64,000 nucleotides of DNA from Actinomycetota bacterium (GTDB lineage: Bacteria; Actinomycetota; Acidimicrobiia; Acidimicrobiales; Iamiaceae), in assembly GCA_019639075.1 (NCBI GenBank), contig JAHBSO010000003.1, positions 1 through 64,000 on the forward strand, written 5' to 3'. Every line of letters starts with the position of its first letter. Within the stretch, counting starts at the first letter, position 1. Position numbers and translations under genes: made by a program. This document shows, one piece after another, positions 8,797 through 54,268 of the stretch. The notes under the pieces were generated by a model. The model was not told the origin of the DNA. It searched no databases and saw only the letters and a program-made list of their open reading frames with translations.

Positions 8797-10692
8797 ATGC
8801 GCACCGGCCCGCAGTCCGACCGCCGGTGGCCGGGGCGCTGGTGGTGGGTTCTGCTCGCGCTCACCGTGCTGCCGATCATCGGGTCGGGGATCCAGCGCAC
8901 CGCCGACGGGTGGTACCCGGAGAGCGACGACGCCACGATCACGCTGCTCGGCGGCGACGTGTTCAGCTCCGACGTGCCCCTGGTGGGCATGATCTCGACC
9001 GGCGGCGACGGTCTCGACGACCCCGAGCTGCACCACCCCGGGCCGCTCGAGCTGTACATGCTGGCGCCGTTCGTGGCCCTCCCCGGGTCGCCGGTGCCGG
9101 CCACGACGGTGGCCGTGGTCCTGCTGGCCGTGCTGGCGGTGGCGGTCGTCGGCCTGGCCCTGCGTCGGGTGGGCGGGGAGCTGGCCGGCGTGCTCGGGCT
9201 GGTGGCCGCCGGCTTCGCGGTCTGGGGCGTCGGCGGCGACGTGCCGGCGTCGGTGTGGAACCCCGACGTGGTCGCGCTCCCGTTCGCCGCGCTCGTGGCC
9301 TCGACCGCCGCCGTGGCCGCCGGGCACCGCCGGTGGCTGATTGTGCAGCTCGTGCTGGCGTCGTTCGTGGCCCAGACCCACCTCAGCTACGTCGGTCTCG
9401 TCGGGGTGCTGGTGCTGTGGTCGCTGGCCGTCACGGCGCGCGACCTGGTGCGCAGCGAGGGCGCCGACCGCACCGACCGGCTGCGCTGGCTGGGCGTCGC
9501 CGCCGGGGTGACGTTCGTGCTGTGGCTGCCACCCCTGGTGCAGCAGGTCACCGGGAGCCCCGGCAACCTCGGCCAGATCGTGCGGTCGATCACCGGGCCG
9601 GGTGGCGATCCGGTCGGCGCCGCCGGGCTCACCGACCTGGCCCGTGTGGTCGGGCTCCCGTTGGTCGGCGCCGCCCCGGCGGGTGACCTGGTCGTGGGCG
9701 TGGAACAGCCGTCGGCCCTCGACATCGCCCGCCTCCTGGTGCCCTTCGTCATCGGCGTCGCCCTGGTCGTCGCCGCGCACCGTCGGCGCGACGGCGTCGC
9801 CCGTCGACTCGCCGCCACCGCGCTGGTGACGCTGGTCGCCGGGGTGGTCACCGCCACCCGGATGCCGCTGGCCGACGGCATCCTCTACCGCTACTACGGG
9901 CGTTGGATGTGGCCGCTCGGCGCCCTGGTGTGGCTCCTGTTCGCCGTCGCGGCTCTCCGGCTCGCACCTGCCCGGTGGATGACCGCTCCCCCGGCACGGT
10001 TCGCGCCGCCCGCGCTCGCGGCGGTGGCCCTCGTGGTGGCGCTGCTCCCCCGGCCCGGCGCGTGGGAGCCGTGGCAGGTGCAGCGCCGGGCCGCCGGCGA
10101 CGTGGTCGACCGGGCCGCGGCCGTGGTGCAGGAATCGGGCGCCGAGCACGTCGTCGTCCGCTTCCGGGGCGGCACCGCGTTCCTCTCGACCGGGTCGGCC
10201 GTGGCGCTCGCCGTCGAGCAGCGCGGCATCCCGACCACCATGGACGCCGGCGCCCCCCTCGACGTCCTCCCCTGGGGCGACCAGCGGGCTCCCGACCGCA
10301 CCCCGGCCGATGCCACGGCCCTCTGGGTGGTGAGCGGTCCCGACCCGGTCGACCTCCCCACGTCGGCCCGGCTCGTCTCCCGGGCCGTGCTGCTGTCGGA
10401 CACCGAACGGGCCGAGGTGCAGCGCTCGGCCGACGAGTGGCGGGAGCGCATCGCCACCGACGGGATCGCGATCGGTGACCGCACGGCCGATGCGACCGAC
10501 GTGCGGGAACGCGTCGATGCGGCACTGGACGATCCGGTCGCCGCGTTCGATCGCGGCGAACTGGGTGACCTCGCAGCGCGGGGCCTCGTCGAGGTGCCGG
10601 GCGGGTCCGTGGACGACCTCTACACGCTCGACCGGCTCCGCTCCCAGGCCGAGGAGGACACGGTCCGGGTGTACCTCGTGACGCCGTCGTGA
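8797..10692 (+). CDS. Multi-pass membrane protein, GT-C-like, function unknown
   Basis: A 631-residue protein. After one N-terminal membrane segment comes a periplasmic loop rich in acidic residues (ESDDATITLLGGD) and then HHPGPLELYMLAPF. About nine membrane segments follow and a soluble C-terminal domain of about 200 residues. The layout and the loop acids suggest a GT-C type glycosyltransferase, but no named family could be assigned. It is a paralogue of the protein at 13816: both carry NHPGP/HHPGP and a WLPP-VQQ-TG-PGN block at matching places. The start is fixed by TAGGCT 7 nt upstream. It ends 4 nt before the opposing gene. Confidence 0.75.
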   Translation: MRTGPQSDRRWPGRWWWVLLALTVLPIIGSGIQRTADGWYPESDDATITLLGGDVFSSDVPLVGMISTGGDGLDDPELHHPGPLELYMLAPFVALPGSPVPATTVAVVLLAVLAVAVVGLALRRVGGELAGVLGLVAAGFAVWGVGGDVPASVWNPDVVALPFAALVASTAAVAAGHRRWLIVQLVLASFVAQTHLSYVGLVGVLVLWSLAVTARDLVRSEGADRTDRLRWLGVAAGVTFVLWLPPLVQQVTGSPGNLGQIVRSITGPGGDPVGAAGLTDLARVVGLPLVGAAPAGDLVVGVEQPSALDIARLLVPFVIGVALVVAAHRRRDGVARRLAATALVTLVAGVVTATRMPLADGILYRYYGRWMWPLGALVWLLFAVAALRLAPARWMTAPPARFAPPALAAVALVVALLPRPGAWEPWQVQRRAAGDVVDRAAAVVQESGAEHVVVRFRGGTAFLSTGSAVALAVEQRGIPTTMDAGAPLDVLPWGDQRAPDRTPADATALWVVSGPDPVDLPTSARLVSRAVLLSDTERAEVQRSADEWRERIATDGIAIGDRTADATDVRERVDAALDDPVAAFDRGELGDLAARGLVEVPGGSVDDLYTLDRLRSQAEEDTVRVYLVTPS

Positions 10693-13802: not shown

Positions 13803-13808
13803 TAGGGT
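13803..13808 (+). promoter_or_regulatory. -10 box TAGGGT of the gene at 13816 (leaderless)
   Basis: TAGGGT is followed by 7 nt and GTG at 13816. The other in-frame GTG at 13807 overlaps the box itself, so it cannot be the start if this promoter is used. Confidence 0.55.
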
Positions 13809-13815
13809 GACCGCC

Positions 13816-15645
13816 GTGCCCGTGCTCGGTCGGTTCGACGCCCAGCTCCAGCGGCGTCCGGGACCGATCCTCGCGGTGGTCGTGGCCGTCGGGGCGCTCC
13901 CGCTGCTGGTCGCGGTGGTCGCGCTGGCCGGCCAGGACTGGCACCCGGTCGGCGATCTCGCACAGGCGGCGATGCGCCAGGAGAGCTTCTGGGCGCACCC
14001 ACCGCTCGTCGGCACGGCCGGCCGCATCGGCACGCTGGAGCAGCAGGGCAACCACCCCGGCCCGGCCATGTTCTGGTTCGCCTGGCCGATCTGGCGGCTG
14101 CTCGGCGCCAGCCCGTGGGCGCTGCAGGTGGCGTCCGCGGTCGGCGCGGTCGCGGCCTACGCGGGTGCGGTGGCGCTCGCCGCCCGGGCCCTCGGGGCGC
14201 GGGTCGCGCTGGCCGTCGCGGTGGCCGGGGCGGTGCTCGTCCGGGCCTTCGGTCCCGCGGTCCTCACCGAACCCTGGAACCCGTCGACGCCGCTGATGCC
14301 CTACCTGCTCTTCGTCGTGGCCTGCTGGACGACCGCGACCGGCCGTCAGCGCCACCTGCCGGTGGCGATCCTGGCCGGCTCGTACTGCGTGCAGTGCCAC
14401 GTGGGCTACGCCCCGGCGATCGTCGGCGGTCTCGTCGTGGCCGTGGCCGGGCTGCTGGTCGGTCGACGGGGCGACCGGGCCGCCACCGCGACCGCGCTGG
14501 GGTGGATCGGCGGCGCGGCCGCCCTCGGACTCGTGCTGTGGCTCCCCCCGATCGTCCAGCAGCTCACCGGCCACCCCGGCAACATCTCGATCATCCTCGA
14601 CACCTACCGGGACCAGACCGGTGAGGTCGTCGGCCTCCGCCAGGGCCTGGAGGTCATGGCCACCCAGCTCGACCCGATCGGCAACGTCCTACGGGGCTCC
14701 GACGACGTCACCGGCGCCCCGTGGGGCGGCATCGTGCTGCTGGTGGCGTGGGCGGCGTCGGTCGTGGTCGCCGTCCGCCGCCGTCACCGCCCCCTGCTGG
14801 CGCTCGACGCCGTGCTCGCCGTGCAGCTGGTGGCCATGGCCTACTGGTCGGTCCGTCTCGACTCGGTCCGCTTCCCCTACCTCGTCCAGTGGTTCTGGGT
14901 CGTCACCGTCCTCCTCCTCCTCGCCACCGCGTGGACGCTGGCACAGATGGGGTCGGACCCCGACCGTGCATCGCCGCAGCATCGAGCCGATGGAGGAGCA
15001 CGGTCGGGGTCCGACCCCATCTGTGCGCTCGCGGTGGTCGTGGTGGTCCTGGTGGCGGTGAGCGGGGTGGTGACGGCGGCGGAGGTCGAGCGGCCGTTCC
15101 CGAACCTGTCCGACACGGTCGCCACCATCGACGATCCCACGGCGGCTGCCCTCGACCACGGGGCCACGTATCGCGTCGACTGGCGCGACGGGGACTCGCT
15201 GGGCGCCGTGGGCTTCGGCCTGATGCTCGAACTCGAGCGGGACGGGTTCGACGTGGGCGCCGGCCCGGCGTACCGCGCCGCGGTCGAGCCCCACCGGGTG
15301 CTGGAGCCCGGCGAGGAGGACGCGGTACTCACCGTGGTCAGCGGCGACGACGCGATCGCGGCGGTCCGCGCCGCGGTGGCCGGCGACCCCGACGTCACCG
15401 AGCTGGTGGCGGTCGACGCCCGGTCGACCGCCGACCGGGCCCGGGCCGAGCAGATGCGCACCGACGCCGAGGCCCGCCTGCGCGCCCAGGGCCGCGACGA
15501 CCTCGCCGACGCGATGGACGCGTCGGTGTGGACCCCGCTGGTCGACCCGTCGATCGACGACGCCACCTACGACGAGCTGTGGCAGCTGGTCTCGATCGGC
15601 CGGCCGACGGCCGTCTTCCTCTCCCCCGGCACGCTGCCGGGCTGA
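13816..15645 (+). CDS. Multi-pass membrane protein, GT-C-like, carrying an in-frame REP-like insertion
   Basis: A 609-residue protein, paralogue of the one at 8797. It shares NHPGPAMFWF after the first loop, then WLPPIVQQLTGHPGN, about ten membrane segments and a soluble C-terminal domain of about 190 residues. Residues 376-404 are encoded by an inverted pair of family A repeats (14941-15027) and read as MGSDPDRA ... SGSDPICA. They lie between the last two hydrophobic segments. The insertion is 87 nt, 29 codons, and leaves the frame intact. The paralogue has no such sequence. The catalytic role is unknown; a glycosyltransferase is likely from topology and neighbours. Confidence 0.75.
   Translation: MPVLGRFDAQLQRRPGPILAVVVAVGALPLLVAVVALAGQDWHPVGDLAQAAMRQESFWAHPPLVGTAGRIGTLEQQGNHPGPAMFWFAWPIWRLLGASPWALQVASAVGAVAAYAGAVALAARALGARVALAVAVAGAVLVRAFGPAVLTEPWNPSTPLMPYLLFVVACWTTATGRQRHLPVAILAGSYCVQCHVGYAPAIVGGLVVAVAGLLVGRRGDRAATATALGWIGGAAALGLVLWLPPIVQQLTGHPGNISIILDTYRDQTGEVVGLRQGLEVMATQLDPIGNVLRGSDDVTGAPWGGIVLLVAWAASVVVAVRRRHRPLLALDAVLAVQLVAMAYWSVRLDSVRFPYLVQWFWVVTVLLLLATAWTLAQMGSDPDRASPQHRADGGARSGSDPICALAVVVVVLVAVSGVVTAAEVERPFPNLSDTVATIDDPTAAALDHGATYRVDWRDGDSLGAVGFGLMLELERDGFDVGAGPAYRAAVEPHRVLEPGEEDAVLTVVSGDDAIAAVRAAVAGDPDVTELVAVDARSTADRARAEQMRTDAEARLRAQGRDDLADAMDASVWTPLVDPSIDDATYDELWQLVSIGRPTAVFLSPGTLPG
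14941..15027. repeat. REP-like inverted pair (family A) inside a coding sequence
   Basis: Two 29-nt units, 14941-14969 and 14998-15026, are exact reverse complements of each other with a 28-nt spacer. Each unit is itself an imperfect palindrome around GGGGTCGGACCCC. The arrangement and spacer match the pair at 8675-8762. It sits within the membrane-protein gene at 13816 and is translated through. Confidence 0.9.
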
Positions 15646-35795: not shown

Positions 35796-35883
35796 GCACG
35801 GATGGGGTCGGACCCCGAGTGTGCGGTCCATCGGCCGATGCGCGTTCCAGCGGCGCGCACTCGGGGTCCGACCCCACCTGCGC
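35796..35883. repeat. REP-like inverted pair (family A)
   Basis: Units at 35796-35824 and 35857-35883 are near-perfect reverse complements with a 32-nt spacer and the GGGGTCGGACCCC core. The pair ends 2 nt before the stop codon of the acetyl-CoA hydrolase gene and fills the gap to the M23 gene. Confidence 0.85.
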
Positions 35884-44169: not shown

Positions 44170-44220
44170 CGAACTGGCGTAGGTGGTGGTGGCCGGGCCA
44201 CCACCACCTACGCCAGTTCG
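44170..44220. repeat. Perfect long inverted repeat (family B, copy 1)
   Basis: Arms of 24 nt (44170-44193 and 44197-44220) are exact reverse complements with a 3-nt loop. They contain CTGGCGTAGGTGGTGG. A second, imperfect copy of the family is at 54216-54268. It lies between the FKBP 3' end and the hisG promoter and could terminate the FKBP transcript. Confidence 0.9.
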
Positions 44221-52209: not shown

Positions 52210-52230
52210 CCCTCGAGCGAGCCGGAAAGG
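52204..52230. repeat. Decayed family E repeat
   Basis: CCCTGACCCTCGAGCGAGC followed by CGGAAAGGC matches the family E copies at 42853-43000 with changes and a deletion. It covers the stop codon of the TrmH-family gene and abuts the long palindrome. Confidence 0.6.
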
Positions 52231-52287
52231 CTTCAACTTTGTCCGGAAGTGCGCGCATTGCGCGCACTTCCGGACAAAGTTGAAGCC
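52229..52287. repeat. 59-bp perfect palindrome (family D)
   Basis: Arms of 29 nt (52229-52257 and 52259-52287) are exact reverse complements around a single base. It lies between two convergent genes and would stop transcription from both sides. The arms are less GC-rich than the surroundings and include CTTCAACTTTGTCCGGAAG. Confidence 0.95.
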
Positions 52288-54215: not shown

Positions 54216-54268
54216 CGGTTCTGGCGTAGATCCGGGTGGGAACGCCACCAGGACCTACGCCAGAACCG
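54216..54268. repeat. Long inverted repeat (family B, copy 2)
   Basis: Arms of 24 nt (54216-54239 and 54245-54268) pair with two mismatches and a 5-nt loop. They share CTGGCGTAGGT and GGTGG with the copy at 44170-44220. It lies between the metK stop and the priA promoter. Confidence 0.85.

Follow-up and report, generated by a model that had tools for sequence, protein, structure and literature searches.

A REPIN-like palindromic doublet as the probable inter-helix loop of a membrane protein in an actinobacterial genome

A palindromic repeat doublet lies in frame within a membrane protein gene of an actinobacterium of the family Iamiaceae. The gene belongs to a window of 64,000 nt, the whole stretch of DNA analysed here (contig JAHBSO010000003.1, positions 1 to 64,000). 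The evidence strongly favours the explanation that a REPIN with a GGGGTCNGACCCC core, mobilised by a transposase of the RAYT/TIRYT type, landed in the codons of an inter-helix loop of a GT-C-like protein and is now the only loop at that place. REPINs, their placement beside stop codons, and in-frame REP dimers are already known, and the finding leaves knowledge of the mechanism unchanged; its added value is orthologue evidence for loop replacement. It is an orthologue-controlled case in which hydropathy argues that a REP doublet is an indispensable piece of a protein, rather than an addition that the protein tolerates. With this family the GGGGWSAS/TIRYT class, and its clear linkage to transposases, now reaches an actinobacterial order in which the class is patchy and abundant.

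In the doublet, a short spacer separates two REP units in inverted orientation. The first unit (GCACAGAT-GGGGTCGGACCCC-GACCGTGC) occupies positions 14941..14969 on the plus strand, and the second (14998..15026, minus strand) is its exact reverse complement; the two are complementary at 29 of 29 positions, which confirms the perfect inverted pair described in an earlier note on this DNA. The 28-nt spacer (14970..14997, plus strand) forms the loop region of the hairpin. The same note gave a length of 87 nt; the element itself measures 86 nt, base 15027 lying outside it and merely closing the last of 29 codons (14941..15027, plus strand; residues 376-404 with the ORF numbered from 13816), which are indeed read in frame, as AQMGSDPDRASPQHRADGGARSGSDPICA. 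The predicted RNA fold of the 86 nt reaches -75.7 kcal/mol, compared with -34.1 +/- 3.3 for shuffled sequences (z = -12.5). The hairpin is a prediction, and the slowing of translation that the same note suggested is hypothetical. The unit at 14941 recurs identically at two other sites in the genome (C12:35818 and C12:241340); the spacer is unique to its site, and two doublets with identical arms carry unrelated spacers. A pair of inverted REP units around a short, less conserved spacer, folding into a single predicted hairpin, is the form of a REPIN. The GTAG tag that marks the GTAG class of REPs is absent from the 29-nt units.

The host gene (13807..15645, plus strand, with its start at 13807 or 13816) encodes a multi-pass membrane protein of 609-612 amino acids, which shows weak similarity, under the curated Pfam cut-offs, to PMT_2 and PTPS_related. 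The ORF stays open through the doublet with coding-like codon use, and both halves of the gene are co-linear with single-protein homologues in 20-odd genomes. The gene is therefore neither an assembly chimera nor a pseudogene, the latter being a circumstance under which the earlier reading was to be abandoned.

Comparison with homologues indicates what the element replaced. The 29-codon segment is missing from all 21 aligned homologues; its absence from the paralogue at 8797, remarked on earlier, is correct and is not particular to that protein. The distance from a conserved Trp to a conserved Thr is 60 residues in the window protein and 50-52 in its five closest orthologues, which are 45-55% identical to it in the 21-homologue alignment; over all homologues this distance is 48-63. 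The relatives carry an unrelated loop at the position of the element, and the window span without the 29 codons is only 31 residues, so a native loop of 15-20 residues has been lost and the element fills its place. The description of 29 inserted residues thus overstates the change, because the homologues have a different loop and the net difference from the closest orthologues is only +10 residues. Calling the insertion recent is likewise unsupported, as even the nearest orthologue shares just 55% identity and identical arms elsewhere hold unrelated spacers; a search of GTDB r220 for closer orthologues returned a single match, 53-56% identical and apparently the one already known. The insert had also been taken as direct evidence that the element moves. 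The alignment supports less: it documents a lineage-specific gain, for which an actual move would be the presumed cause.

In the protein, the 29 element codons form the sole hydrophilic stretch between two membrane segments, as the earlier note had placed them. When the insert is removed, the flanking hydrophobic segments merge on the hydropathy plot into one 45-residue stretch (residues 353-397); since the two membrane helices would fuse without it, the element is now the loop. Between the two fates originally proposed, an exapted loop is for this reason, and because the native loop is gone, favoured over a dispensable fossil. The element peptide contains three Arg and one His, as do the basic loops of the orthologues, and additionally three Asp; by this resemblance in Arg/His content, membrane topology is probably kept. 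A structure model built from two sequences (mean pLDDT 44) was too poor and was left out of the argument.

The doublet belongs to a large family. Each strand of the 2.74-Mb genome contains 54 copies of the 13-base core and 0 of the reversed control pattern. Sites were collected with the core and a one-mismatch variant (GGGGTCGGATCCC / GGGATCCGACCCC) and read from the stretches around the matches. The resulting 47 sites comprise 27 doublets, 12 singles, and 8 larger clusters. Doublets measure 86-97 nt; their arms are conserved, and their spacers diverge strongly but share a weak oriented consensus (log-likelihood 151 vs 73 +/- 6 for shuffled spacers). The units of a doublet pair with each other better than each pairs with itself, and the outer and inner arm halves covary between them (AGAT/ATCT, ACGT/ACGT, CGAT/ATCG). 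Despite a coding density of 91%, 44 of the 47 sites are extragenic and three lie in genes, in keeping with the view that the family avoids genes. Doublets are over-represented (27/47) and dispersed through extragenic space, a REPIN trait. At 30 of the 47 sites a facing stop codon lies no more than 15 nt away. Elsewhere in the window, a three-unit cluster (8615..8761) sits between divergent genes whose starts are 10 nt and 35 nt away, and a doublet (35796..35883) lies 2 nt past the stop codon of a minus-strand gene.

Target-site duplications, for which a check at the insert had been proposed, are lacking there, and across the 47 sites flanking match lengths equal those of permuted flanks, with one lone 8-base match (L106). 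HUH transposases of the IS200/IS605 group are not expected to leave such duplications, and their absence is consistent with an enzyme of this kind. The idea that insertion between genes generally replaces flanking DNA was rejected, as residual gaps between convergent genes equal those of element-free pairs (10.5 nt with elements, 13.5 nt without; p = 0.34). Two sites show further detail. At L079:2968-3158 (G000:C4), unit 2 and its flank are present as three tandem copies with a 48-49 nt period, so local duplication also enlarges clusters. At L089:2978-3067 (G000:C22:162477-162566), A-type units (GGGGTCAGACCCC / GGGGTCTGACCCC) contain a TGA that is the stop codon of the upstream gene.

The core has a patchy distribution among 298 genomes of the order, with 5-167 copies in 20 genomes and 0-3 in most others. 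By a 20-base pattern, the 23 other genomes in the same taxonomic family lack these elements. Y1_Tnp, the RAYT-like transposase domain, is present in 19 of the 19 other core-rich genomes vs one of 26 core-poor ones, four of which were counted by the 20-base pattern only; with the window's genome included, the comparison becomes 19/20 vs 1/26 (Fisher p about 1e-10). This association across genomes with a RAYT-type transposase is again what is seen for REPINs. Units lie 6-219 nt from the ends of five transposase genes (G046, G254, G133, G290, and G189), some overlapping the 3' end, and HUH and Tyr motifs are common to all five. The A-type units found at transposase flanks in relatives occur in the window's own genome as well; as text, GGGGTCAGACCCC was not found in the literature. 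Repeats flanking the Y1 transposase genes of relatives contain GGGGWSAS, the hallmark of TIRYTs, and the unit at 14941, which is G-type, differs from it at one motif position. In the core-rich genome G133, three in-gene matches are single cores, and the other sampled sites, all clusters included, are extragenic.

Core patchiness, Y1_Tnp linkage, and unit-flanked transposases together identify the doublet as a REPIN of the RAYT/TIRYT (GGGGWSAS) type, and the transposase association in related genomes supports, at the level of sequence, the mobility of the doublet class. In the window's genome, whose assembly is 79% complete, neither Pfam nor alignment with the five transposases revealed Y1_Tnp, and none was found in the sampled genus mates. 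The window's copies may be orphans, or the fifth of the genome that the assembly lacks may hold the transposase gene.

The likeliest course is that a RAYT-type (Y1_Tnp, HUH) transposase inserted a copy of the doublet among the loop codons. The usual outcome of such an insertion would be loss of the gene and, with it, of the cell line. This loss would have been escaped through a product that was in frame, held no stop codon, and supplied a hydrophilic, positively charged peptide able to serve as a loop on the cytoplasmic side. The codons of the old loop, about 19 of them, would have disappeared during or after insertion, and with them gone the element could not be removed without helix fusion. 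A clean 86-nt insertion would shift the frame, because 86 nt, like the 131 nt of the cluster described below, leaves a remainder of 2 on division by 3. An indel at the time of insertion or afterwards must therefore be assumed, which fits the lost linkers. We infer all three elements of this history: insertion by the transposase, loss of the old loop during or after it, and a protein that works.

Three other explanations were weighed. The elements might be host hairpins, either bidirectional terminators or stabilisers of mRNA 3' ends, selected at gene ends, with the in-gene copy a stray of recombination or conversion. This would account for the 30 of 47 sites that have a facing stop codon no more than 15 nt away, many of these sites being between convergent genes, and for arms that are strongly conserved and covarying while spacers drift. 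Stop-codon placement is, however, undiagnostic, since REPs elsewhere are placed alike (PMC3733652), and the similar gaps of convergent pairs with and without elements (10.5 vs 13.5 nt, p = 0.34) are as expected from insertion into short gaps. Patchy occurrence, tight linkage to a transposase, and absence at the 20-base level from 23 other genomes of the taxonomic family all speak against host hairpins, which we regard as improbable.

The size and inverted-repeat form would also suit a MITE that derives from a conventional (DDE) insertion sequence and has terminal inverted repeats of 29 bp. Such a MITE is nevertheless a very remote prospect: target-site duplications, by which a MITE would be recognised, do not exceed the permuted expectation, each unit is itself near-palindromic and occurs also singly or in clusters of three to four, and the associated transposase is of the HUH type. 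An assembly of 28 contigs and 79% completeness, with identical arms at several sites, could also in principle have joined two genes at a repeat. Such an artefact is scarcely credible here and was rejected, because in many genomes one and the same protein aligns co-linearly with both halves of the gene, common read lengths exceed the 86-nt repeat, and the spacer is unique to the site.

The REPIN reading places the doublet among several known systems. REPINs of Pseudomonas fluorescens SBW25 are REP doublets that form hairpins (Bertels and Rainey 2011, PMC3116915). The present elements resemble them in being inverted REP doublets of about 70-110 bp with conserved arms and a divergent spacer, in their extragenic dispersal, and in their link to RAYTs; they differ in core sequence, in having a copy within a gene, and in that no RAYT was found in this genome. 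Tyrosine transposases with flanking repeats that share GGGGWSAS are termed TIRYTs (Di Nocera et al. 2013, PMC3733652). Like TIRYTs and TIRtrons, the Y1-type genes of the relatives are flanked by GGGGWSAS repeats, with dimers and clusters, and GGGGTCAG fits the motif exactly; those systems come from other lineages, however, and the G-type core found here (GGGGTCGG) is off at one position. REPs adjoining stop codons have been published, as have in-frame intragenic REP dimers of 20-30 residues in genes of known function in O. terrae, Thauera, R. conorii, and others (PMC3733652). The doublet at 14941 is similarly in frame and has a similar residue count, and goes beyond those dimers in that orthologues show the element in place of a native loop or linker. 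Copies within genes are thus known elsewhere, yet rare. Rickettsia palindromic elements (RPE) are palindromic repeats read in frame in functional genes and are described as often intragenic. The parallel, drawn by description only, lies in the in-frame palindromes within genes; here just two or three of 47 sites are intragenic.

A second in-frame case involves a three-unit cluster (C12:190,027-190,157; L087:2928-3058) that is read in the GSDP frame as 44 codons of an enoyl-CoA hydratase-type fusion gene, between an upstream domain and the enoyl-CoA hydratase domain. The fusion protein of genome G019 has a 14-residue linker there (HQRWLT-ERGPARRQGPDGPA-VAVDRVG), and the window's genome reads ...HHRWLT[44 element codons]VAAERSG..., so that conserved sequence directly borders the element at either end and the native linker has gone. 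These are the only two clear internal in-frame cases, too few for a rule. Since replacement is not general (the convergent gaps are unchanged), the lost linkers may reflect selection for compact in-frame products, not insertion chemistry. A bolder proposal, that REPIN insertion in this lineage entails linker loss and that the hairpin repeatedly becomes the only linker, as the loop here and the hydratase-type linker would suggest, seems rather doubtful; if true, small mobile DNA supplies obligatory protein loops by this route. At L088:131-275 (G000:C16), another three-unit cluster adds about 50 C-terminal residues to a BioF-like protein and stops just short of a BioD-like start codon.

The window contains other palindromes as well. 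Two perfect or near-perfect hairpins (44170-44220 and 54216-54268) share CTGGCGTAG ... CTACGCCAG, a pattern with 5 matches in the window vs 0.27 expected, and may represent a further palindrome family, one with a GTAG motif. At 52229-52287 the two 29-bp arms of a perfect hairpin (GGCTTCAACTTTGTCCGGAAGTGCGCGCA) enclose a 1-nt loop; this structure does not resemble the GGGGTC family and is probably a terminator.
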